From assembly GCF_003332305.1 (NCBI RefSeq), contig NZ_QOIO01000007.1:1-64000 (forward strand): 64,000 nucleotides of DNA, in the 5' to 3' direction. Positions within the stretch are counted from its first letter, which is position 1. Each line of letters opens with the position of its first letter. Shown piece after piece: positions 27,326 to 39,823 of this stretch. The DNA comes from Microvirga aerophila (GTDB lineage: Bacteria > Pseudomonadota > Alphaproteobacteria > Rhizobiales > Beijerinckiaceae). The notes under the pieces are model-generated. The model did not search any database, had not been told where the DNA came from, and was given only the letters and a program-made list of their open reading frames with translations. A program made the translations under genes and the position numbers.

Positions 27326-28088
27326 CGAATGGACTTAAGCGGCAGTGCTGACTGCGGACTTCCACTCCGCCATGGCATTGAGGCGGTGAAGATGGGTAGC
27401 AAGGGCAGAGCGGCGGGAGTGGGGTGGGACGAAGAGGTTGCGAACTGCTGAGAAGATACTGACGAACTTCTGCAGGCCTCCGGGAGATCGAAACCCTTGC
27501 ATTGCTTGCTCTCGCCGTCGCAACGGCAGATGCGAGTTCTCCGCGCGATTGTTGAGCCCTTTGTGTTGCCGATGCTCAATTGCCGGCATGACCTGCCGTC
27601 GGGCGGCAGCATACGAGCCGAGCTTGTCGGTGATCATCCGTCGCGGTGGACACCCCTGCTTCTTCAGCAGACGCTTGAGCAAGCGCTTGGCCGCTTTGGT
27701 GTTGCGGCGAGCCTGGACGATCTCATCAAGGACATAGCCGTCCTGATCCACCGCCCGCCACAGCCAGTGCGTCTCGCCAGCAATGGTGATCACGACTTCG
27801 TCGAGGTGCCAGATATCGCGGCGGCTCGGCCTCTTGCGCCTGAGGCGGCGAGCGTATTCAGGTCCGAACTTTAGAGCCCATCGGCGTACCGTCTCATAGG
27901 AAACCACGATACCGCGCTCGAGCAGCATCTCCTCAACCAAGCGTAGACTCAGCGGAAACCGAAAGTAGAGCCAAACGGCATGAGCGATGATCTCGGGCGG
28001 GAAACGGTGGCGCTTGTAGCTGATGGGATGGGTCATGCTGCGGCTCTTAGCTCATAAGCCGCTGACCAAAAGTTACCGTGACATCACC
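27276..28088 (-). mobile_element. IS6-family insertion sequence, complete, no target duplication
   Basis: 813 bp. The ends read inward are GGCGTTGTCAAATTAACT (27276) and GGTGATGTCACGGTAACT (28088), matching at 13 of 18 positions. The flanking 8-mers (ccgcaacc and ggtcgagc) differ, so no target duplication exists. Left flank is an fucD gene without its front; right flank is a sensor kinase without its front. It is a different IS6 subgroup from the element at 3686 but has the same length and the same half-gene/half-gene setting. Confidence 0.85.
27335..28036 (-). CDS. IS6-family transposase
   Basis: 233 residues, full length. HTH region (SLRLVEEMLLERGIVVSYET, VRRWALKFG), DDE residues D79 (WHLDEVVIT), D137 (MITDKLGSY) and E166 (NNRAENSH), then RRREQAMQGFRSPG. 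Intact and probably active. Confidence 0.93.
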   Translation of the reverse strand: MTHPISYKRHRFPPEIIAHAVWLYFRFPLSLRLVEEMLLERGIVVSYETVRRWALKFGPEYARRLRRKRPSRRDIWHLDEVVITIAGETHWLWRAVDQDGYVLDEIVQARRNTKAAKRLLKRLLKKQGCPPRRMITDKLGSYAAARRQVMPAIEHRQHKGLNNRAENSHLPLRRREQAMQGFRSPGGLQKFVSIFSAVRNLFVPPHSRRSALATHLHRLNAMAEWKSAVSTAA

Positions 28089-29067
28089 GGTCGAGCAGGT
28101 GGTCACCATCGACGGCGAGGCCGGACAGCGCGCATTCAGCCTCGCGGTCGCGGTGGATCACAAGCAGGTCGTGGAGTTGCGGGAGGCGTTCGGCTGGGAC
28201 GTTGTGCGCGTCCTTGCACCCATTGCGGCTGTCCTTGTCCTGTTCGCCTGCTTGCAGGTCTGGCTCGGCCTTCGTCCATTGCGAACGGTGAACCAACAGC
28301 TGAACGACGTTCAGACGGGGCGGATGCGGCGCATGACCCGGCGTTTTCCGAAAGAAATCGCCCCCCTCGTCGACAGCATCAACAAGCTGCTCGACCGCCA
28401 GGAGAACCTCGTTCGAAAAGCGCGCGACCGCGCCGGAGCGTTGGCCCACGGCCTCAAGACGCCTCTCACCATTCTGGGCAACGAAGTGCGACGTCTCGAG
28501 CAACGGGGCATGCGCGATGAGGCGGAACGATTGCACGAGCAACTAGGCGCAATCCGCGGTCATGTGGACCGTGAGGTTGCGCGGGCGCGCACTAGCGGCG
28601 CCTCGGTGGGTTGCGGCGCCTATACGGCGGTGGACGCCACCGTCGCGCGGCTTCTGAGGCTTCTGCAGCATATGCCGCGAGGGGGTGATCTTGTCTGGGA
28701 GACCCAGGTTCCGCCGGATCTGAGCGTCGAGATGGATCCGCACGATTTTGGCGAGGTGATGGGCAACCTGCTCGACAATGCGCGCAAGTGGGCGAAAAAC
28801 AACGTCGCCGTTCGGGTGGACACGATGGGCGAGAAAGCCCGCATCACCATTGAGGACGATGGTCCGGGTTTCAAAGGCATGCGGCCGGAGCGCGGTATGA
28901 CAGGTCGTTCCGACACGACCTCCAGCGGCCTTGGACTCGGCATCGTCGAGGACATCCTGGCCGAGTATGAAACCACGTTGGACATTCAAGGCAGCGGGCG
29001 GTGCAGTGTCTCGTTCGAGATTCACGTCTGTCCAGAGATGCCTGTCCTGGCCGATAGGGCTGCTTAG
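28078..29067 (+). pseudogene. PhoQ-like sensor histidine kinase, N-terminus lost to an IS
   Basis: Genuine kinase sequence starts at 28089, directly after the IS end; the GTG used by the frame lies inside the IS. What remains is the end of the sensor domain, one membrane helix (VLAPIAAVLVLFACLQVWLG), a HAMP segment, the phospho-His box (LAHGLKTPLTIL), the N box (MGNLLDNARKWA) and G boxes (IEDDGPGF, GLGLGIVEDIL). The first membrane helix and most of the periplasmic sensor are missing, and no response regulator gene is adjacent. It may be expressed as an unregulated kinase, but is most likely dead. Confidence 0.8.
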
Positions 29068-29183: not shown

Positions 29184-30389
29184 ATGACTTTGTTCTATGA
29201 CCGACGGGCCCAGGAATTCGGAACCCGCGTCCGGCTCTTTCCTCAAGCGCCGTTTCTGGCCGGCTTCGCCGAGCCGGAGGTGGTCTGGTTGTCGCCTGCC
29301 GCAGGAAGCGTCGGGCCTGGCCCGTCCGATGACCGAATGTACGTGGTGGACGCCATAGACAAGCGCGAGCCGTACCAGTTTCCCTATCTCCCGCCTTATC
29401 GCGGACCCGCAAGGCCCCCGGTGCTCCCCGATGCGGAGGGCCACTTCGCGCATCTTCCAGTCACGTCCCGCGACTTTCTTGCGGTCCACATGTACGGGTC
29501 TGTTCGGAGGGTTTTGGATATCTTCGAGAGCTACCTCGGCGACAGGATCGAATGGCAGTTCGGCCAGCATTTCCGGCGGCTTGAGATCATTCCCCTCATC
29601 GACTGGGACAATGCGCAATCAGGGTTCGGCTATATCGAATTCGGGCGGAGCATAGCGGAAGACGGCACCGCTCTGCCCTATGGTCTCAACTTCGACGTGA
29701 TCGCCCACGAGATCGGTCACTCGATCCTGTTCTCGCTCATGGGGCTGCCCGAGAGCGGTCAGATGACAATCGAGTTCCGGGCGTTTCATGAGGCATCCGC
29801 CGATGTGGCGGCTCTGATCGCCGTGATGCATTTCGATACGGTGCTGGATCGCCTGCTGCGCGCCTGTCGCGGCAACATCTATGTCCTCAACGAGCTCAAT
29901 CGCCTCGGCGAGGTGGCGGATACGAAGCAGATCCGCCTCGCGAGCAACGGCACGCGCATGTCGGACGTGGGAGCGGAGCCGCATGACATGTCCCGGCCTC
30001 TCACGGGGGCGTGTTTCGATATCATCACATACATCTATGCCTGCGAGCTCGCCGACCGGGGCCTTGTTCCGCGCGAACTCTGGGCGCAGGCCTACGAGAC
30101 GAATATCTCCGGCATACAATCCGAACGCGTCTCGCAGGCCTTCGCGCGCAGCTACGCCAATCGGCATTTCGCCTTCAAGGCCGCTCTCGCATCCGCGCGC
30201 GACCTCTTCGGCCGCTATCTCGTGTCCGCCTGGCAAGACCTTTCGCCGGATCAATTGAGCTTCGGCAGTGTTGCGGGCGCGTTGCTGGACGCCGACCGAC
30301 GTATTTCGAGAGGCCGTCACCATGACGAAATCTGCGAGATCTTCCGGTGGAGAAGGATCGATGTCCCCATCCGGGCACTTCAGGTTTAA
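29184..30389 (+). CDS. Putative gluzincin zinc metallopeptidase
   Basis: 401 residues. A HEIGHS zinc motif occurs after NFDVIAHEIGHSILF and, about 30 residues on, FHEASADVAALI supplies the third ligand (Glu) in an ExxxD arrangement like thermolysin-type gluzincins. DNAQSGFGYIEFG before it resembles the M4/M36 substrate-strand region. There is no signal peptide, so it seems cytoplasmic. The specific peptidase family is not recognised. The gene converges on, and overlaps by 4 bases, the last gene of the YcaO-TfuA operon; a role in trimming a modified product is possible but inferred from position only. No clear RBS is seen. Confidence 0.7.
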   Translation: MTLFYDRRAQEFGTRVRLFPQAPFLAGFAEPEVVWLSPAAGSVGPGPSDDRMYVVDAIDKREPYQFPYLPPYRGPARPPVLPDAEGHFAHLPVTSRDFLAVHMYGSVRRVLDIFESYLGDRIEWQFGQHFRRLEIIPLIDWDNAQSGFGYIEFGRSIAEDGTALPYGLNFDVIAHEIGHSILFSLMGLPESGQMTIEFRAFHEASADVAALIAVMHFDTVLDRLLRACRGNIYVLNELNRLGEVADTKQIRLASNGTRMSDVGAEPHDMSRPLTGACFDIITYIYACELADRGLVPRELWAQAYETNISGIQSERVSQAFARSYANRHFAFKAALASARDLFGRYLVSAWQDLSPDQLSFGSVAGALLDADRRISRGRHHDEICEIFRWRRIDVPIRALQV

Positions 30390-30958
30390 TGTCGTGGTTG
30401 CGCGTCCCGGTGATCCGGCGCATCGGCGGGTTCCTGCCGGTTGCCGGGTGGCTCCGCATTCCCTTGGTCCTGAGGCTCCAAATCGTTGAGAGCCACAAGC
30501 CCTCTGACGACTGTGCCCGGAGCAAGGTGTTCGATGCGCAGGTTGAGCGTGACCAAGAAGGATTTAGCCCGCACGGGGCGATCGATTTCAAGGGCTACGG
30601 CTTCATCCCCTTCGTTACAACCACTAATCTCCGGGATGCAGCCGCACTGGCTGAAGGCGCCATCGACTCCTCCGAAGGGCCGATCGGCTCTGCGATCGGC
30701 GGGTGCAAGCCTGAGTTCGTTCCAGTATTGCTCGTATTGGGGGTATAACGACCGCTCCATTGGGCCGAGAACCCCCTCGATCCGTGCCGAGACTTGCCCG
30801 TTTCGCCCTCTCTCGCAGGCCGGTTCGAACGTCTGGATGAGAAGGTGCCTTGCCGTGAAAGGGTCGGCGTCAGCTGGACGGGGGATCAGGACAGTGACGT
30901 CATTCAACGCGCTGTCTTGATCGAGCCTTCCAACGAAACCGCCCAAAACGGATGCCAT
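30386..30958 (-). CDS. Hypothetical protein, fifth gene of the YcaO-TfuA operon
   Basis: 190 residues. I do not recognise a family. It is likely real because ATG 30958 has a good RBS (GGAGATGTTGCA) and follows the previous stop by 18 bases in the same direction. The protein shows alternating hydrophobic strands (VTLNLRIEHLAPGTVVRGLV), a cysteine-containing stretch FSQCGCIPEISGCN near 107-120, and a charged Pro/Asp/Arg-rich C-terminal 30 residues that look disordered. No signal peptide. Candidate substrate or partner of the upstream enzymes. Overlaps the convergent metallopeptidase gene by 4 bases. Confidence 0.6.
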   Translation of the reverse strand: MASVLGGFVGRLDQDSALNDVTVLIPRPADADPFTARHLLIQTFEPACERGRNGQVSARIEGVLGPMERSLYPQYEQYWNELRLAPADRRADRPFGGVDGAFSQCGCIPEISGCNEGDEAVALEIDRPVRAKSFLVTLNLRIEHLAPGTVVRGLVALNDLEPQDQGNAEPPGNRQEPADAPDHRDAQPRH

Positions 30959-30976
30959 TGCAACATCTCCATCCGA

Positions 30977-31423
30977 TCATTCGATCAGCTTGCCGCCGCG
31001 GTGCGCCATCTGCCACGCGATAGAATAGGCGACCGGTTGCTTTGCGGCGTTGAAGTTCCGTTTGAGGATCAGTTCCTCGAACGTGTCGCCGAATGCCTGG
31101 AACTGGATGGTGGCATCGAGCTTGTCGACTTCCCAACTGAGATAGGGCGAGTTCCAACCGCAGCTGCCGTTCGCCTGGGTTCCCGGCGCTTCGACGAGCA
31201 CAACCATCGGCTCGGGCAACGTGTAGCAATGCCCTTGATAGCAGTACCCGTAAACGAGAACGAGCGATCGATTTTGGGTTAGGGGTGACGGAAGGAAGTA
31301 GACCGTCACCTCATCTGTCGTCAGATGATAGAAGGGGACGCCATACAGGGTGATCCTCGACGGGCGGTATCCCATCGTCTGCGGATGAGGTCGATTTTGG
31401 GTAACTTCGAGGAGATCAGTCAT
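30977..31423 (-). CDS. Hypothetical protein, fourth gene of the YcaO-TfuA operon
   Basis: 148 residues, no family recognised. ATG 31423 has an RBS (AAGGAGCGGCTCC) and lies 27 bases after the tfuA stop. The sequence looks beta rich (ITLYGVPFYHLTTDEVTVYF), with an unusual aromatic/cysteine block YGYCYQGHCYTLPEP near residue 58 and GSCGWNSPYLSW near 88. C-terminus ends GGKLIE. No signal peptide. Position directly behind tfuA makes it the leading candidate for the protein that YcaO and TfuA act on, or for a binding partner; neither is shown. Confidence 0.65.
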   Translation of the reverse strand: MTDLLEVTQNRPHPQTMGYRPSRITLYGVPFYHLTTDEVTVYFLPSPLTQNRSLVLVYGYCYQGHCYTLPEPMVVLVEAPGTQANGSCGWNSPYLSWEVDKLDATIQFQAFGDTFEELILKRNFNAAKQPVAYSIAWQMAHRGGKLIE

Positions 31424-31450
31424 GGAGCCGCTCCTTCGTCCTGAATAGTG

Positions 31451-32842
31451 TCATGGGAAGTTGTTGCGGTCGTCAAGACTGAGAGCCGGGGGTGTAATAC
31501 CTTTTTGGGTGCTGTGCTGCCTATAGTAATACTCTCGAAGGAGAGCGCGGCTCATTGTTGACGGATCATCGTAGCCCAGTCGCGCCGCAAGCTGTTCGGG
31601 TCGGACGGTAAAGAGCCGACCCGGCGCCAACTCGCGACAGAACCACGCCTGAAGGTCTGCCGGTGAGATGCCGCCCGTGTGCGTTGCCACAGAGTCCTTG
31701 CCCATCTCCTCAAGGGCGCGCTTCTTGGCCTCCGCCCGTGCGGCCAATGCGTGAAGCCATCCACGCGATCGCAGGGTGTTGAGCAGCGCGGCCCTGATAG
31801 CCTCATCGGAGAGATCCACAACCTGCCTCACGAGAGCCTCCTCCCTGAGGAAGGCTTCAAGTTCCATCTCGTTGAGCCTGCTTTCCCGAAGGGTCCTGCT
31901 CAAGCCCGCTCCAAGTTCGCGCAGCCAATCCCGCAGGACGTTTTCCAACACATCGTCCGTGGGAGCCAAGCCTCGACGCTTGGCTTCGTGAAGGGCAAGA
32001 GCCCGGCTGAGGGCTTCCCGGCGGATTCTTGCATGGTCGCGGGGAAGCAGACGAAGCTCATCCAGCACGTCCTCGATCAGAAGCAAGCCGTCGCCTTCCG
32101 ATGACAGGGCCCTCGCCGCAGCCCGGTCGCGCTCCCATGCCTCCGTGCGCTCGAATGCAAAACCCGGCATGAATGGAGCAGGATCGGGCGCCATGAATTG
32201 CCGAATTGCCGTCAGCATCGCAACTGCATCGAGCCTTTTGCGATTGACGCGCCCGGTTGGAAGCCAATCTTCCAGAGCCGTCAGTTCCCGCGCATCGGCT
32301 CCCGCAATTCGACTCTGTCGAATGAGATCCGGCCAGTGACGATCGGCATAGAACGTCGCCTTGCCGTGATCGAGAAGCTGGCCACGCGTTTCATCGCCGA
32401 TCAGGTCTGCGGCGCAGGCTGCATCGAGGGTGGCGCGGATATCCACCATCGCGTCGCTGAGCGGGATGTAGCCGAGTTCCGCGGGGCCGTGTTCGACCGC
32501 CACCTCGTCGTCGTCCTCGATCCGACCGATTTTCAAGTCCTCGAAGATTGTCCCGACCCCGACCATGCCGAAATCCGCCAGTTCCGCAGCCCTCAAGGCT
32601 CCCATGCTGGCGGCCCCGAACACGTGGATGCCCGCCTGAAGCGCCCACAGGATTTCCTTGTGCCTGACGGCCGGAACGTTTCGAAAGAAGCCGTCGATGA
32701 GCCCGATGGCGCGAAGACCAGGGGTTGTTTCAACGGCTCGCAGAATATCGCCATGTGCTGCCGGAGGCCGGCACACCGCCTCCACATGTTCCTGGACTTC
32801 GGCCGCTGAGATCGTCGGGCCGCAGAAGACCACGATGGTCAT
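31451..32842 (-). CDS. TfuA-domain protein
   Basis: 463 residues. The TfuA domain covers about 45-170: LIDGFFRNVPAVRHKEILWA, GIHVFGAASMGALRAAEL, MVGVGTIFEDLKIGRIEDDD, VAVEHGP. A long, charged, helical C-terminal region without assignment follows. TfuA partners of YcaO enzymes are known in trifolitoxin biosynthesis and in thioamidation (thiopeptide-like peptides and methyl-CoM reductase), where they are thought to deliver sulfur. ATG overlaps the ycaO stop (ATGA), so the two are translationally coupled. The usual short TfuA is about 230-250 residues, so this one carries a large extra C-terminal half. Confidence 0.88.
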   Translation of the reverse strand: MTIVVFCGPTISAAEVQEHVEAVCRPPAAHGDILRAVETTPGLRAIGLIDGFFRNVPAVRHKEILWALQAGIHVFGAASMGALRAAELADFGMVGVGTIFEDLKIGRIEDDDEVAVEHGPAELGYIPLSDAMVDIRATLDAACAADLIGDETRGQLLDHGKATFYADRHWPDLIRQSRIAGADARELTALEDWLPTGRVNRKRLDAVAMLTAIRQFMAPDPAPFMPGFAFERTEAWERDRAAARALSSEGDGLLLIEDVLDELRLLPRDHARIRREALSRALALHEAKRRGLAPTDDVLENVLRDWLRELGAGLSRTLRESRLNEMELEAFLREEALVRQVVDLSDEAIRAALLNTLRSRGWLHALAARAEAKKRALEEMGKDSVATHTGGISPADLQAWFCRELAPGRLFTVRPEQLAARLGYDDPSTMSRALLREYYYRQHSTQKGITPPALSLDDRNNFP

Positions 32843-34113
32843 CGCATCTTCTCCAGATGTCTCCGGGCCCGCGACCCCGGGATGATATGGGGGCTGGGCG
32901 GCCCCTCGAGTCCGGGTATGACGACACGCGCAACGGCAAAGGGGGCGTCGGCCGGTGACAGGTCCAGAACCACGATCTCGCTGAGGCCCGCCGATCGAAG
33001 CTGCGTCGCGATATGGGAGAGATCCTCATCGATCGTCTCGAAAGTGCAATGGGGGACATTGTCGAAGCGGCAGGCAGAGGAACTGGAAGCGAGACGGCCA
33101 CGCCACTCGGCAAGTTGGCCCGGATCGTCCATCCGGTGGTAGAAATCCGGCCCCACCTCGTCCCGTGTCCCGGCGATGACGGTGGCGCGAGACTGGGCTG
33201 CTTCGAGAAGGGCCCTCACGAGCGCGATGCCCCTGTCGGGATGGCAGCCATGACCTTCCGCCGGCAGAGGCATGACCCCGGGACCTCCATCGCGTTCCAT
33301 GATGTGACATCGAAAGGCCGCGATACCGATGTCGGAGGTCAGGTCCCAGACCGCGCAGAGGAGTCCCGCGGTCTTGATGCGGTCGATCACCAGAAGAGCG
33401 TCGTCATCATCGACCGATGCGAGATCCAGCCGCCGGGCATCAAGGGCAGTGTGGTCCAAGCCGAATAAAATGTGACAATCCCGTTCGATCACCTCGCAGG
33501 CGGCGTGCACGAGCGCCTCGGCCCGATTGTTCCCGGACGCGAGCCCGTTCGTGCTCGCCAAAAAATATCCGCTGCCTGCGGGGGACGGAAGGGTGAAGTT
33601 TACATGCGCGATCTCGTAGGGGAGCAGACAGGGCGCATCGTCCTCAAGGTGGCGGCCCTCGATCCACAGGGTTTTCGTGTCGTCGGAAAAGTCCACGCCG
33701 GTGCGACGTGAAAGACGCCCCACATCGAGAAGCCGATAGCCTTTCTGGCGGAGCTCCCGTGCGTCGGCCCAGAGCAGTGGGCCATGCAGGCGTTCGGCGT
33801 GGAAGGTTTCGACGGCTTCCATGATGGCCGAAACCTTGGCGGCCGCGCGGGTCATGCCCTTGCCCTGGAAAACCGCGTTTGATCGCGCGTTCGGGCGCAC
33901 TGCCACCGCAACCGGCAGACCGATTACGTCCAGGCCGGTGATGTCGGCGACCCGCGTGATCTCCATGGAGGCGAGAAGGGGCTGCAATCGCGTTAGGGTT
34001 TCCTCGGGCTCGATGGCGCGATGAGCGCCGCGCCGAAAAGTCTTGGGTGTGGCAGTCCCGTTGGTCGGGAAAGACGCTGGCCAACTCTCGACGGAAGGGT
34101 TGGGGCCTGCCAT
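32839..34113 (-). CDS. YcaO-domain ATP-dependent enzyme
   Basis: 424 residues from ATG 34113, 4 bases after the stop of the upstream regulator. YcaO hallmarks: AFRRG-like start (KTFRRGAHRAIEPEETL), ITRVADITGLDVIGLPVAVA, the nucleotide-binding Glu cluster SAIMEAVETFHAERL, STNGLASGNNRAEALVHAAC with EVIERD, and a VARVVIPGLEG end. YcaO enzymes activate an amide carbonyl with ATP. The azoline-type C-terminal PxPxP is absent (ends RARRHLEKMR), as in TfuA-paired YcaOs that form thioamides. The frame is open further upstream, but that is antisense of the regulator gene. Confidence 0.9.
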   Translation of the reverse strand: MAGPNPSVESWPASFPTNGTATPKTFRRGAHRAIEPEETLTRLQPLLASMEITRVADITGLDVIGLPVAVAVRPNARSNAVFQGKGMTRAAAKVSAIMEAVETFHAERLHGPLLWADARELRQKGYRLLDVGRLSRRTGVDFSDDTKTLWIEGRHLEDDAPCLLPYEIAHVNFTLPSPAGSGYFLASTNGLASGNNRAEALVHAACEVIERDCHILFGLDHTALDARRLDLASVDDDDALLVIDRIKTAGLLCAVWDLTSDIGIAAFRCHIMERDGGPGVMPLPAEGHGCHPDRGIALVRALLEAAQSRATVIAGTRDEVGPDFYHRMDDPGQLAEWRGRLASSSSACRFDNVPHCTFETIDEDLSHIATQLRSAGLSEIVVLDLSPADAPFAVARVVIPGLEGPPSPHIIPGSRARRHLEKMR

Positions 34114-34117
34114 GCGA

Positions 34118-37100
34118 TCACCGCAGCCGATCCAGGACACGGGTTGCCCGGTTCCGGTCCTGGGTTGCGGCGGCTTCCGGCAAGGATCCAATCGCGCCCT
34201 TGAGGAGGGTGGAGCCGGCGGAGCGCTCGCCGCTTTGCGCCAGCAAGGCCGTCTTGCTTGTCGCGGCGCGGAGGAACAGCGAATGGGCGGATTGCGCGGA
34301 GGCAACCGCGAGAGCCTTATCGAAGGCCGCGAGGGCATCGGCGGTCCGCCCGAGGGCCAAGAGAAGCTCGCCTCGCCGGCGGTGAAGTTCAGCGGACCAA
34401 TACTGGAGGCCTGTCTCCTCGGCGATTGCGACCGCTTCGTCGATGACGTCGAGACCGCGTGCGTGCTCTCCCGCGAGGCCATGAACATCGGCCAGCATTT
34501 CAAGATAGGCCGGAAAGTCCTCTTGCGTGCCGATCATTCTCTGGGTCGCGAGCCCATGCTCGATCAGGTCGCTTCCGCCTGCCGGATTCCCAGCAAAAGC
34601 CATGGCCCACCCGCCGAAGATTTCCGCCTTGGCCTCGACGTCTCGAAATCCCAGCCCCCGCGCGAGTCGGTTCATGCGCCGTGCCCTGTCGGCCACTCTT
34701 TCCACATCGCCGAAGTAATGAAGCAGGTTGATTTCAGCTTCTTCGAAATGGCTCCGGCTCGCCAAGTGATCGAGTTGAGCCGCGTGACGGGCGCATGACT
34801 TGATGACCGCGGCTGCCCGGCTTGGAAAGCCTTGAATCCAGAGCGAGAGCGCCTTCTCGCCGAGGGCGCAGACCTTGGGGTCGTGCCCGCCGTACAGAAT
34901 GGCGTCGGTACCATGTTCAGCGGCGTCGTAAAGGTCGAGGCCCTCGCGGATATGCTCGCAGCAATGCTTCTGCTCTCCCAGCATGAAGAGCGTTGCCCAC
35001 TGGCAGTGATGAGCCTGCAACTTCAGATGCGGATCGGAGATGCTGAGGGCAACGTGCGACAGCCGATCAGCCCGCTGCCGCATGATTGTGAAGTCGGGCG
35101 CGGTCCGCCACCAGCCCCAGTGCGCCGTGAAATGGCGCGAATCCGGAGACATGCCTTCGCACAGGGAAACCGCCCCCTGGTAGTTATCCTGGACCTCGGG
35201 CGCGCCCGGTCCGGCGGTGGTGATGAGCAGTGGTCCCAAGGCCAGGCGGATGTCCAGCTCGGTCTCGTCCCGCTGCGGGCCTGGGGCCAACTCGGCGCAC
35301 AGGGCAAGGGCCCGTTGCAGCAGGTGGACCGCCTCGACATTCGCAGGCCGCAAGGCCGCGTTTTGGCCGGCGATCCGCAGTTTCGCTATCGCCTCGCGCG
35401 GGAGCCCGGCCTCTGCCAGATGGCGAGCGAGAATCTCGGACGCCGCTTCCGACGAGTCTTGGAAATCGGCTTCGAGAACTTCCGCGATGCGTTGGTGGAC
35501 CGCCTGTCTTCGGGCCTTCAGCATGCTGTCATAGGCGCAGACCTGCAGGAGCGCATGCCGGAAGGCGAAGACCGGCTGGGGCAGGTGCGCGTCGAAGGTC
35601 AGAAGACCTTGGGTGATCAGCCGTCTCACTTCCTTTCCAAGAGTAGCGGCATCCAGATCGGCTGCCTTTTGAAGCAGGATGAGGGAGAAGGAGCGTCCGA
35701 TTGCGCTGGCGATTTGCGCGACTTGCTTGCCTCGTCCCGACTGATCGAGGCGCGCGGTTAACATGTCCGACAATGTTCGTGGAATTTCCACGGCCCATTC
35801 CGACCGCTGATCAGGGCTATCCGCAGTTGCGGATGCCAGCACCGTCCGCGTCAGCTCTTCGAGGAAGAACGGATTGCCCTCCGCGCGATCGACGATATGT
35901 CGGACCTGCTCGCGGGGCAGATCCACTGGTCCTGCCATATGCCCAACGAGCATTGCCGCGGCGGCCTCGGATAGCGGTGCGAGCTCGATCCGAGTAATAG
36001 CCTCCGGGTCGACGTCGCGAAGAAACGGACCAGACCTTGTCGTGACAATCATTAACACTGGAAGTTCGGCGAGACGGTCCATCAGGCGTCGCAGGAGCTC
36101 CAGGGACGTCGGATCAATCCATTGTGCGTCCTCGACAATGATGAGCATGGGGCCGCGCGCTGACAATCGCGCCGTAAACTCCAGCAGTGCCGAAAAGGTG
36201 TCCTCCTTGAGTTGTTCCGGTGTGGACGGCGGAGGCGCCTCATGACTCGATGGGACATGTGGCAGGAGGTTTGCGAAGTATGGGGCCGCCTCAGGATAGG
36301 GCGGTACTGCTTCCGCCAGGAGCCGGTTGAGACGAGCCTCAGGGATGCTCGGATATTTGTCGGGCCGCATCAGCAGCACTCGCTCGAGCAATGCGGCGAC
36401 AGGATACAGCGGGGTGGCCATGTGGAGCGGCGAGCATTGAAACACCCAAGCATAAGTCGCCTCGTCGGCGAGACTTGCGCGGACGGAGGCGGCGAGCCGC
36501 GACTTGCCAAGTCCAGCTTCTCCCGTCACGACAACGGCCTGTCCCCGCCCGTGTCTGGCGGAATCCCACCGGTCGAGAATGAGCGATACCTCGGCATCGC
36601 GTGACAGAAGCGGGGTATCTGTTCCGGATCGCGCTCCTTCGAAACGGGACTTCTGCCTGCGCTCGCGCAGGGCCGCGAAAGCCTGTTGAGGCTGGGAAAA
36701 GCCTGCGAGCGCCAGCGCCCGCCCTGGCCCGAAGCGGAAGAGGGTGCCGACTAGACTGCGGGTGGATTCCGCGACGAGAACCGTGTTCGGGGCCGCTGCG
36801 GCCTGGAGGCGGCTTGCTAGGTGAGGGGCGATCCCCACGACCTCGCGACGGCCATGGCCGTCGCCGGATAATTCGCCGGCGACTACCCGTCCGGTCGCAA
36901 TCCCCACGCGGACGTGAAGCTTGACGCCTGCGCCCTTGATAGTGGGGGACAGCTCGCCGCAGCGCGCCGTGATGGCCAACCCTGCGCGTATGGCCCGCTC
37001 GGCTCCGTTCTCATAGGTGATGGGATAGCCGAAAAAGGCCATCCCGCCGTCGCCGGCATAAAGATTGACCCTCCCGCCGTATTCCTCGACCGCCGCGGTG

Positions 37101-37258
37101 CACACCTGGTGAAAGGCCTGGAGGATTTCACGCAGCTCCTCGGGATCGAGTCTCTCCGCGAGCGGGGTCGATCCGACGAGGTCATAGGCGAGGGCCGTGA
37201 CCTGCCGTCGTTCGACGAGGCCCGTCAGCCGGCGTTCTGGCTCATGAGGGCGTGCCAT
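34118..37258 (-). CDS. Class III cyclase-like / AAA ATPase / TPR regulatory protein
   Basis: 1046 residues. A cyclase homology domain comes first (20-200), with metal Asp26 (ALAYDLVGS) and Asp70 (LYAGDGG). The transition-state Asn normally in TPNLAARLQ is His146 (APHLASRLQ), so cyclase activity is doubtful. An AAA/STAND-type ATPase follows: Walker A GEAGLGKSRLA (246-255) and Walker B MLIIVEDAQWID. The C-terminal 500 residues are TPR-like helical repeats. Such proteins act as large sensor-regulators. It is the first gene of the ycaO-tfuA operon and is separated by only 4 bases from ycaO, suggesting it senses a signal for, or controls, that system (inference). Confidence 0.88.
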   Translation of the reverse strand: MARPHEPERRLTGLVERRQVTALAYDLVGSTPLAERLDPEELREILQAFHQVCTAAVEEYGGRVNLYAGDGGMAFFGYPITYENGAERAIRAGLAITARCGELSPTIKGAGVKLHVRVGIATGRVVAGELSGDGHGRREVVGIAPHLASRLQAAAAPNTVLVAESTRSLVGTLFRFGPGRALALAGFSQPQQAFAALRERRQKSRFEGARSGTDTPLLSRDAEVSLILDRWDSARHGRGQAVVVTGEAGLGKSRLAASVRASLADEATYAWVFQCSPLHMATPLYPVAALLERVLLMRPDKYPSIPEARLNRLLAEAVPPYPEAAPYFANLLPHVPSSHEAPPPSTPEQLKEDTFSALLEFTARLSARGPMLIIVEDAQWIDPTSLELLRRLMDRLAELPVLMIVTTRSGPFLRDVDPEAITRIELAPLSEAAAAMLVGHMAGPVDLPREQVRHIVDRAEGNPFFLEELTRTVLASATADSPDQRSEWAVEIPRTLSDMLTARLDQSGRGKQVAQIASAIGRSFSLILLQKAADLDAATLGKEVRRLITQGLLTFDAHLPQPVFAFRHALLQVCAYDSMLKARRQAVHQRIAEVLEADFQDSSEAASEILARHLAEAGLPREAIAKLRIAGQNAALRPANVEAVHLLQRALALCAELAPGPQRDETELDIRLALGPLLITTAGPGAPEVQDNYQGAVSLCEGMSPDSRHFTAHWGWWRTAPDFTIMRQRADRLSHVALSISDPHLKLQAHHCQWATLFMLGEQKHCCEHIREGLDLYDAAEHGTDAILYGGHDPKVCALGEKALSLWIQGFPSRAAAVIKSCARHAAQLDHLASRSHFEEAEINLLHYFGDVERVADRARRMNRLARGLGFRDVEAKAEIFGGWAMAFAGNPAGGSDLIEHGLATQRMIGTQEDFPAYLEMLADVHGLAGEHARGLDVIDEAVAIAEETGLQYWSAELHRRRGELLLALGRTADALAAFDKALAVASAQSAHSLFLRAATSKTALLAQSGERSAGSTLLKGAIGSLPEAAATQDRNRATRVLDRLR

Positions 37259-37318: not shown

Positions 37319-39697
37319 TCAGGCGGTGGCTGATTTGGGCCTGCTTTCGATCTCCGCCATCAGGTCGTCCGCCATCTCCTGAAGCCGGTGGCGATCGGCT
37401 TCGGAGAATTGACGAGGTTCCGTGTCGATGACGCACAGAGAGCCGACGACCAGCCCGGCCGAAGTTCGCAGGGGAGCGCCGGCGTAGAAGCGGATGCCCT
37501 TTTCGAGCACGAGCGGGTTGTCGGCGAAGCGGTCGTCCTTGGTCACGTCCTCGGACACCATCACGCCCTCCGCCGCAACCACATGGCCGCAGATGGATTC
37601 TTCACGGGGGCTTTGACGGGCCGCAGCGGGATCAGCCGACGCGCTTGGTGCGGCGGGCAGGGGTTGGTGCTCGTCCTCCATCAGCGACACGAGGGCGATG
37701 GGAGCGTCGAACGCTTGAGCCACCCTTTTGGCCACTGCGTCGAACTGATTGCCGCGCGCCGACGTGAGGCCGAGTTCGCGCAGCGCAGCAAGCCGCTCGT
37801 GCTCGTTGTCCAGAACTGGCGGAGCCGTCTCGCCGACGGCCATCTCGTGGGACACCCACGCATTCACCTGATTCACACAGGCGTCGAGGGAAACCATCAC
37901 CGCGTCGGCCCCCATCTGCCGTGTCGTGTCCTCCATCTGACCGGTGTGAGACGGCAGGTTCCAGCAGCATACGATGAGCTTCAGGTGTGGTGCGCGCCGC
38001 CGCAGGCGGCGGCAGATATAGCGGGCGAACACCTGCGGCTGAGGATGGAGATAAGACAAGCAGACAACTTCCACACCGGAGATGTCGAGCTGCCCCAAAG
38101 CGCCTTCCGTGACGGAGATCGGGGGCAGCACCCGCGCGCCGATATCCTTCTCCTCCAGCACCTGCGCCAGCATTTCGGCGGCGGCCCGGTCGAGTTCCGT
38201 GCGGCCGGCAATGCACAGAACCGGCGTGCCCGACGTGCGGGGCAGGACTTGGCCGGAATCTTCCGCGTCGTCCGCATCGTCCGCTTTCGGTTCCTTTTCG
38301 CGGACGTGATCCGCCACCTCCTGCACCACGCAGGTGGCGGTGGTCGCCACCTGACGGCGGTAATTGGTGTCCGTCGTGCTGCGCTGACGGTCGTTCTCGG
38401 CCAGGCGGAGGGCCGGCAGGCCTACGTGGTCGTAGAACTCGCGGGAGGAATGCTCGTCCACATAGTCCTCCGCCATCTCGACGGCCTCTTCCAGGTTCCC
38501 GGCAAGAAGACGTTGGTAGAGCCGCTCCTCGGGAGCCAGAACGGGATCGCTGCCGAGGAGGACGCCGAGGAACTCGAGACGCGGCACATAGCGGCCGATC
38601 ACCACGAGACAGACCGTGAGCGGCGTCGCCAGGAACAATCCGACGGGTCCCCACAGGGTGGTCCAGAAGATCGCCGCCATGATGATCGCAAGGGATGAGA
38701 GGCCTGTGCTGGAGCCGTAAAGCCACGGCTCGACCACATTGTTGCTGATGAGCTCGGCCAAAAGAAACAGACCAACGACCCACAGCAGCATCGACCAGCC
38801 GGGATCCACCGCGAAGGCGAGCGCTATGGGAAAGAGCGCGGCCAGGAACGGGCCCAGATAGGGCACGAAGCGGAGCACGGCTGCAAGCAGCCCCCAAAGC
38901 ACGGCGTTGGGAACGCCGATGAAGTAAAGGGCAAGGCCAATCGGCACGCCGTAGGTCAGGTTCACCACAAGCTGCATCAGGAGATAGCGGCTCACGCGGC
39001 TGGCCGCGTCGTTGAGCGCCTGCGTGCTCTTCTGGAGGTCGCCCGCTCCCGCAAGCTTGATGAAGCGGTCTCGTAGGTCTTCACGCTCAAGCAGAACGAA
39101 GATCACGAAGATGATCACGAGTCCCGCCGTAGCGAGCGGCGCAAGGAGCGGACCCACGACAGTCTGGATGATTTCCAGGGGCTTGGCCTCGGCGCGTTCA
39201 AGCCTGACGGTGACGGGCTCCTGTGGGGCGGTGCCGCCGCCCAGGGTCCGGCTGGGCTGCTCCTGGGGCTTATCTTCCCCGGAGATTTCCTTGCTGAGGT
39301 CCTGGATCGTCGTCGTGACCCGGTCCACGACCCCGCCCCCCGGGGCAGAGCTCTGCAGGGAGCGAATCTTTTCCGTGATGGTGGTCTGATAACTTGGCAG
39401 ATTGTTGGCGAGCTGGACGACCTGGCGCCCGACCACATAGGCAACCCCGCCGATCAGGATGAACGCGAGGGTCACCGCGACCAGCACGGCCGCGATCCGC
39501 GGAAGCTTCAGCCGTCTGAGCCAGTTCACAAGAGGCGTCAGCGCAAAGCTGAGCAGAATGGCCAGGGCGAACGGGATGAAAATATCGCGGCCGAAATAGA
39601 GCCCGCCAATCGCCAGGACGATGCCGCCTGCGGTAAGGATCGGGGAATGGGCAGTAGGCGAAGCCGGCTGCACCGGAGGCGGGGCCGGGTCGGCCAT
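37319..39697 (-). CDS. AI-2E/PerM family permease fused to a B12-binding-like and a GAF domain
   Basis: 792 residues from ATG 39697 (RBS GGAAGG); a TTG 12 codons earlier is possible. Residues 1 to about 400 are a PerM/AI-2E exporter-like permease with eight helices (LAIGGLYFGRDIFIPFALAI, LRFVPYLGPFLAALFPIALAF, ISNNVVEPWLYGSSTGLSSL). About 500-620 resembles the B12-binding flavodoxin-like fold without the cobalamin His (TPVLCIAGRTELDRAAAEML, VEVVCLSYLHPQPQVFARYI). The last 150 residues are a GAF domain (IALVSLMEDEHQPLP, GIRFYAGAPLRTSAGLVVGS, LCVID). The substrate is unknown; the cytoplasmic part probably senses a ligand. Confidence 0.85.
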   Translation of the reverse strand: MADPAPPPVQPASPTAHSPILTAGGIVLAIGGLYFGRDIFIPFALAILLSFALTPLVNWLRRLKLPRIAAVLVAVTLAFILIGGVAYVVGRQVVQLANNLPSYQTTITEKIRSLQSSAPGGGVVDRVTTTIQDLSKEISGEDKPQEQPSRTLGGGTAPQEPVTVRLERAEAKPLEIIQTVVGPLLAPLATAGLVIIFVIFVLLEREDLRDRFIKLAGAGDLQKSTQALNDAASRVSRYLLMQLVVNLTYGVPIGLALYFIGVPNAVLWGLLAAVLRFVPYLGPFLAALFPIALAFAVDPGWSMLLWVVGLFLLAELISNNVVEPWLYGSSTGLSSLAIIMAAIFWTTLWGPVGLFLATPLTVCLVVIGRYVPRLEFLGVLLGSDPVLAPEERLYQRLLAGNLEEAVEMAEDYVDEHSSREFYDHVGLPALRLAENDRQRSTTDTNYRRQVATTATCVVQEVADHVREKEPKADDADDAEDSGQVLPRTSGTPVLCIAGRTELDRAAAEMLAQVLEEKDIGARVLPPISVTEGALGQLDISGVEVVCLSYLHPQPQVFARYICRRLRRRAPHLKLIVCCWNLPSHTGQMEDTTRQMGADAVMVSLDACVNQVNAWVSHEMAVGETAPPVLDNEHERLAALRELGLTSARGNQFDAVAKRVAQAFDAPIALVSLMEDEHQPLPAAPSASADPAAARQSPREESICGHVVAAEGVMVSEDVTKDDRFADNPLVLEKGIRFYAGAPLRTSAGLVVGSLCVIDTEPRQFSEADRHRLQEMADDLMAEIESRPKSATA

Positions 39698-39823
39698 ATG
39701 GGTAACCTTCCAGTCAAGTTTACTGGAAGACAACTCGACACCCGCCTGTTGGATCCTGACCGTTTAAGGCCTTGACCGTTCCTGAGAGGCTGGTTCACCA
39801 AGGAGAAGCGTCTACGCAGCCCT

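Follow-up and report, generated by a model that had tools for sequence, protein, structure and literature searches.

A conserved YcaO-TfuA cassette in Microvirga and rhizobia with a candidate precursor protein that ends in tandem repeats in many relatives

The stretch of DNA analysed here, called the window, comprises 64,000 nucleotides of Microvirga aerophila (contig NZ_QOIO01000007.1, positions 1 to 64,000), and the subject of this study is a YcaO-TfuA gene cluster within it. Five open reading frames (ORFs) lie on the minus strand, separated by intergenic gaps of 4, −4, 27 and 18 bases, where the negative value is the overlap of the ycaO and tfuA genes by 4 bases. They encode a cyclase-ATPase protein of 1046 residues (CYC, 34118-37258), YcaO (424 residues, 32839-34113), TfuA (463 residues, 31451-32842) and two small proteins of 148 residues (S148, 30977-31423) and 190 residues (S190, 30386-30958). 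The ORF check confirmed these five genes, with their positions and gaps, as an earlier note on this DNA had given them. That five-gene cluster was incomplete, namely, a convergent gene on the plus strand (29184-30389), which overlaps the S190 gene by 4 bases, had been overlooked. It encodes a predicted metallopeptidase of 401 residues (MPEP) and is the sixth gene, a conserved member of the system.

The YcaO and TfuA proteins form an adjacent pair in which both domains score above their Pfam cut-offs, with 241.2 bits for PF02624 (cut-off 25.7) and 151.2 bits for PF07812 (cut-off 30). The top NCBIfam models are TIGR03266 for YcaO (204.3 bits, cut-off 365) and NF033432 for TfuA (199 bits, cut-off 235.2). 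Both describe the thioamidation of a glycine in McrA, and neither curated cut-off is reached by the window proteins. The closest solved chain to YcaO is MJ1094 (6pe3, E 1.2e-26), and 6xp8 is the sole solved-structure match of TfuA (E 1.1e-34). The earlier note had considered the two as a pair of the thioamide type, a YcaO without the azoline-type PxPxP tail and a TfuA with an extra C-terminal half, and all of this is borne out: no PxPxP is found at the C-terminus of YcaO, the nearest solved relatives are those just named, and the TfuA models align to residues 3-215 of 463 only, that is, to the N-terminal half. Long TfuA proteins of ca 440-460 residues are common among the relatives too. Judged from these similarities, the pair is nearest to thioamide-forming ones, and thioamide formation is its likely chemistry.

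The translation of the MPEP gene contains the zinc motif HEIGH (29706-29720, plus strand). An HExxH motif, a downstream glutamate ligand and a thermolysin fold predicted by modelling together point to a gluzincin of the M4/M36 type. CYC matches the Pfam models Guanylate_cyc (43.9 bits) and AAA_16 (85.3 bits, STAND-like), followed by a TPR-like part, and is a putative sensor or regulator.

To what extent these genes belong together can be seen from their recurrence. Of 36 candidates from a protein search with S148, 33 had E up to 0.01, and the window protein was aligned with 32 of these (33 rows; one 103-residue protein was excluded). A genome scan with this alignment gave 54 loci, chiefly in Microvirga, Rhizobium, Sinorhizobium and Ensifer. 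According to tblastn, CYC, YcaO, TfuA, MPEP and S148 are present together in all 54; the sampling favoured loci resembling the queries. In 51 loci the MPEP gene is flanked by tfuA and the S148 gene and has their orientation; in the three others, which come from Microvirga and are similar to the window, it is located downstream and inverted. When the ORFs were clustered, any family other than these five recurred in at most 11 of 55 loci. In the taxonomic family of the window, 17 of 298 genomes match S148. The regions of the 16 other genomes were read, and YcaO, TfuA, MPEP and S148 were found in 14 of them, the remaining two being interrupted by contig ends. At the level of the order, an MPEP alignment had matches in 21 of 397 genomes, and at the level of the phylum in 9 of 398, two of the nine being weak; the two samples overlap. 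YcaO and TfuA accompany MPEP in 23 of the 25 regions read, and the two remaining regions are the weak matches. Among plasmids, MPEP is matched by 124 records, almost all of which come from Rhizobium and its relatives, including pSymB of S. meliloti Ak57.

The two small proteins differ in this respect. Neither reaches the cut-off of any Pfam or NCBIfam family, as the earlier note had expected in calling them proteins of no known family. S148 is a widespread family, while S190 is limited to close relatives: the protein search gave four homologues, and among the 54 scan loci only L003, L004 and L005 have a match (the loci L057 and L058 are the genome of L005 and the window itself). The S190 sequences share an invariant CxCIPExxxC segment, have a poorly conserved C-terminus and give a profile unrelated to S148. 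A role of S190 as a general substrate, which the earlier note had allowed for, does not agree with so narrow a distribution. The lack of conservation of the small genes, which the earlier note had named as an objection to its reading, thus largely applies to S190 but does not apply to S148.

We now consider S148 itself. The window protein lies below the cut-off of all Pfam and NCBIfam models, and PF00805 gives no match. The AlphaFold2 model of the protein has a mean predicted local distance difference test score (pLDDT) of 80. It contains a beta domain between about residues 11 and 120, for the most part predicted with confidence, and a C-terminal tail with pLDDT below 50 for residues 129-142 and 144-148. 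Despite this predicted disorder, the sequence HRGGKL (H141-L146) near the end is invariant in all 33 rows of the alignment, including the window. The window carries one copy of the tail unit, HRGGKLIE (30980-31003, minus strand), which is the proposed core.

In a number of relatives, the same position is occupied by a tandem array of units of 5-7 residues, in about 3 to 11 copies. The units of the first set of loci are SGARV, SGAKV, SGSKV, SGSRV (10.6 copies), RGASV, GGGKV, SGANL, SGYSL, SSGASL, TGRAQM/L, TGRSMM, SAGAQLR and YSGGKA. C-terminal arrays occur in 19 of 91 S148 proteins from the fetched loci. The same loci contain 1173 other ORFs with a length of 100 residues or more, and no array was found in these, one masked run being set aside. 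The second set consists of 20 regions with high-scoring matches to a repeat-type MPEP in the taxonomic family of genome G500, which is probably Rhizobiaceae. S148 was found in 18 of these regions and an array in 16, with the units RGMNA, ARGAN, SAGSFVR and GRSSG among them; the tail is degenerate in L211 and single in L222. Taken at the level of the family, the 35 arrays with a score of at least 9 are what is expected of a precursor with repeated cores. When codons one period apart are compared in these arrays (1046 pairs), 616 differences are silent and 37 are replacements, a ratio that is biased by the choice of arrays by protein similarity and by drawing the second set near the repeat type. 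The many silent changes indicate that the arrays are not fresh duplications of DNA. Arrays with mostly silent differences resemble the pattern of multi-core precursors of ribosomally synthesized and post-translationally modified peptides (RiPPs) such as thiovarsolin, and by this analogy the units would directly suggest the peptide products. In a tree of 69 MPEP sequences, the repeat and single types are largely separated, with three changes of type.

The tails of 92 family members, a set in which at least two entries are second readings of one locus, fall into 47 of the AP(x)R type, 24 of the HR[GSN]G[KR]L type, 19 arrays and 2 others. The tails APHRGGRD (L008) and APHRNRE (L011) look intermediate between HRGGRL and APQRHRD, and it appears from the sequences that the Gly unit has been lost from most rhizobial tails.

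Of the proteins in the cassette, S148 is the best candidate for the substrate, and it resembles an oversized RiPP precursor. The earlier note had proposed a system that modifies a folded small protein, with no classical short leader-core peptide gene present. The latter is indeed the case and S148 is the likely substrate; the site, however, is likely the disordered C-terminal tail rather than the folded domain, because it is in the tail that the relatives have tandem arrays. Since the window S148 has a single unit, its own place in a RiPP reading rests on homology. The explanation that we favour, and to which we give an even chance of being correct, is that the cluster makes short thioamide peptides. 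S148 would be the precursor, its folded domain serving as leader and its disordered tail HRGGKLIE as core; YcaO and TfuA would thioamidate this core; MPEP, on the evidence of its predicted fold, would cut the precursor and free short peptides; and the cyclase-ATPase protein would be the probable sensor or regulator, through which the peptides perhaps signal.

Besides the bias in the codon ratio, a number of observations weigh against this explanation. Almost half of the family (47 of 92 members, from Rhizobium, Sinorhizobium and relatives) ends in the AP(x)R-type tails, mostly without a Gly unit, and two members (L082 and L135) lack both a clear array and a tail of the HRGGKL type, although the MPEP tree places them among the repeat type. 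Thermolysin has a known residue preference, and the units ARGAN and GRSSG lack a favoured residue. The TPR_12 match of CYC, 26.8 bits, is below the cut-off of 30.1. No exporter is a fixed neighbour among the families recurring in the 55 loci, where no search was aimed at transporters. Furthermore, in five loci (L192-L195 and L203) no YcaO-TfuA lies within ca 5-7 kb, despite the presence of the cyclase, MPEP and an S148 with Gly-rich repeats. Four of these are plasmids, p42c of R. etli CFN 42 and three others from Rhizobium (R. etli/R. leguminosarum), with degenerate tails of the SRSGG type. The fifth, L203, is the nearest kin of this R. etli-type plasmid lineage (68% identity) and comes from G1062, a genome 88% complete in which no TfuA match was found; it is one of 20 genomes of the G500 family that were selected through MPEP, and the other 19 have TfuA. 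Modification may therefore not be indispensable, and the peptide cassette without linked YcaO-TfuA may function with unmodified peptides or rely on enzymes supplied in trans. On Rhizobium plasmids, both in this lineage (L192 8974-9312) and outside these four (L196 8690-9085), S148 is immediately followed by small extra genes that have no Pfam match.

Three other explanations were considered. YcaO-TfuA could thioamidate the folded domain of S148, for example at the glycine of a central YG[FY]x5C motif, whose spacing equals that of the thioglycine site FFG465FDLQDQC472 in the McrA peptide of M. acetivorans (PMC5589413). The top NCBIfam models of the pair are those of this very reaction, the motif residue is glycine in 85 of 92 family members, and modification of a folded protein by YcaO has a precedent in uL16 (PMC13063428). 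However, both models score below their cut-offs, and in the remaining seven members (L083, L084, L086, L088, L118, L129 and L135) the glycine is replaced by A, S or T, even though all of them have linked YcaO-TfuA save L083, where the contig ends. The structural model moreover places G59 in a beta strand, and the tandem tails are left unexplained, which makes modification of the folded domain unlikely in our view. The tails themselves could instead be structural, that is, pentapeptide repeats forming a beta-helix on an S148 that stays uncut as a scaffold or signalling protein. L084 does score 30.6 bits for PF00805 (cut-off 20.2), L124 comes near with 18.0, and 4 of 80 members match an NCBIfam pentapeptide model, while L132 and L024 do not match the Pfam one. 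A five-residue helix would be broken by the periods of 6 and 7 that occur besides 5 in homologous tails; the units are near identical within a protein but different between proteins, and only one copy is present in the window. We consider a structural role of the repeats quite improbable.

We hold a similarly low opinion of the idea that S148 is a recognition or carrier subunit and that the substrate of YcaO-TfuA is encoded elsewhere. It would fit with the retention of the S148 domain in rhizobia where the tail differs, and with the existence of YcaO-less versions of the cassette. On the other hand, clustering of ORFs at minimum lengths of 50 and 60 residues gave no further family as widespread as the five, the exceptions being the cyclase-TPR gene of the repeat loci and frames that mostly overlap cassette genes in the examples shown, and a carrier would not readily account for tandem arrays whose differences are mostly silent.

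Returning to the thioamide-peptide explanation, the main ground for connecting it to signalling is that a cyclase belongs to the cassette in either of two architectures. CYC is present in 47 single-tail loci and absent from 1, and present in 2 repeat loci and absent from 13, rows that are not independent. In most repeat-type loci, MPEP or S148 is instead adjoined by another cyclase-TPR gene of class III. In the first set of 21 loci (the 19 arrays plus L082 and L135), 13 have this other gene and 2 have CYC, while four are cut by contig ends; in L124 and L127 neither was found in the stretch read. The class III gene is found in 17 of 17 cases in the second set and in 4 of 4 plasmids. Cassette-type cyclases have between 1 and 20 matches per genome. 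When the L123 cassette cyclase is used as the query, the top match is the cassette-adjoining gene in 11 of 13 genomes, a count that includes the query's own genome and two in which there is only one match; L124 and L127 come from the two genomes that deviate. The TPR match is above the cut-off in the L123 cyclase, as opposed to the window CYC. PycC models, which describe the cyclase of the Pycsar anti-phage system, match the cyclase domains of both CYC (best E 6.8e-13) and the L123 protein (best E 2.2e-7), and no Pycsar effector was matched among the 7 proteins scanned.

In 64 CYC sequences, the two metal aspartates are kept in 58 and 61, one arginine in 62 and the Walker lysine in 63. The positions which we take to be the base-specifying lysine and the transition-state asparagine (window residues ca 66 and 146) are mostly replaced, and the activity of CYC is therefore uncertain. 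The earlier note's view of the large cyclase-ATPase as part of the system is supported by the homologues in all 54 loci, and from its domains a sensor or regulator role is probable. One can speculate further that thioamidated repeat peptides, cut out by MPEP, are sensed by the TPR part of the class III cyclase and converted into a cyclic-nucleotide signal, which would constitute a Gram-negative, alphaproteobacterial counterpart of RRNPP quorum sensing with a protease-resistant backbone. This circuit is a tentative proposal that we regard as rather doubtful.

As to known systems, thiovarsolin from Actinobacteria (PMC6511847) is the nearest precedent by analogy for repeated YcaO-TfuA cores. It shares YcaO, TfuA and a family of precursors in which some cores repeat and others do not. 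Its cores are APR/GPR and the var cluster has no specific protease, whereas here the precursor has ca 145-300 residues with a predicted folded domain and is accompanied by a thermolysin-fold protease and a cyclase. McrA thioamidation in methanogens (PMC5589413), to which the best NCBIfam models belong, has a protein and not a short peptide as target, as is proposed here; the scores of the window proteins are below both family cut-offs, however, and the proposed target is a C-terminal tail. Thioamidation of uL16 by E. coli YcaO (PMC13063428) likewise has a protein target without a classical leader peptide, but it involves no TfuA, and the site is recognised in a folded ribosomal protein. CYC is similar to the cyclase-ATPase part of the TOMM kinase/cyclase fusion model TIGR03903 (PMC2887384), although the match, 434.9 bits against a cut-off of 705.75, begins at model position 283 and covers 283-1262 of 1267, not the whole model. 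Oversized leader domains are known from the NHLP/Nif11 precursors (PMC2887384), whereas the window S148 matches no such model above its cut-off. The RRNPP systems of Bacillota (PMC11343458, PMC4147580) have short peptides, sometimes duplicated in the propeptide, that are released by proteases and bound by TPR proteins; the present hosts are Gram-negative, with YcaO-TfuA and a cyclase beside the precursor.

Parts of the cassette have been touched upon in the literature. An earlier survey excluded TfuA-associated YcaO proteins because their substrates were unknown (PMC4603692), and a graspetide study mentions complex loci in which adenylate cyclases occur together with YcaO and TfuA (PMC8939145). 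A TfuA survey, in which RiPPER was used at standard settings, listed Rhizobium among the dominant proteobacterial TfuA clusters and named other peptides (PMC8120280). The RiPPER window is 20-120 residues (PMC6511847), and precursors of ca 145-300 residues fall outside it, which may be why other peptides were named. If our explanation is correct, a large family of peptides, probably thioamidated, has been overlooked in legume symbionts and soil bacteria, and its coupling to a thermolysin-fold protease and to class III cyclases of two architectures would point to a role in signalling.

TfuA also occurs outside this cassette. Of 199 genomes searched within the order, 29 have it, at 35 places, 12 of which are in the cassettes with MPEP. 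Of the other 23, 20 were read (omitted were two fragments in G313 and a single place in G320), and neither S148 nor MPEP was found at any of these 20. At four of them another tandem-repeat protein lies directly upstream of ycaO (L177 4924-5346, L187 4766-5068, L182 8190-8894 and L188 7996-8640), with mostly silent differences, which means that repeats beside YcaO-TfuA are not confined to S148. These four proteins fall into two families, (GGFFEAS)n and (QSQAGV)n, and are possibly other repeat-core precursors.

Finally, some neighbouring genes may be mentioned. On one side of the window cassette (27335-29067) there are an IS240-type DDE transposase (27335-28036) and a histidine-kinase-like ORF (28078-29067), which could indicate mobility or truncation. 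On the other side, the cassette is adjoined by a gene for an AI-2E family transporter with a GAF domain (37319-39733), and in R. johnstonii 3841 an AI-2E family transporter gene lies ca 3 kb from the cassette (L196 12200-14194); both placements are perhaps due to chance.
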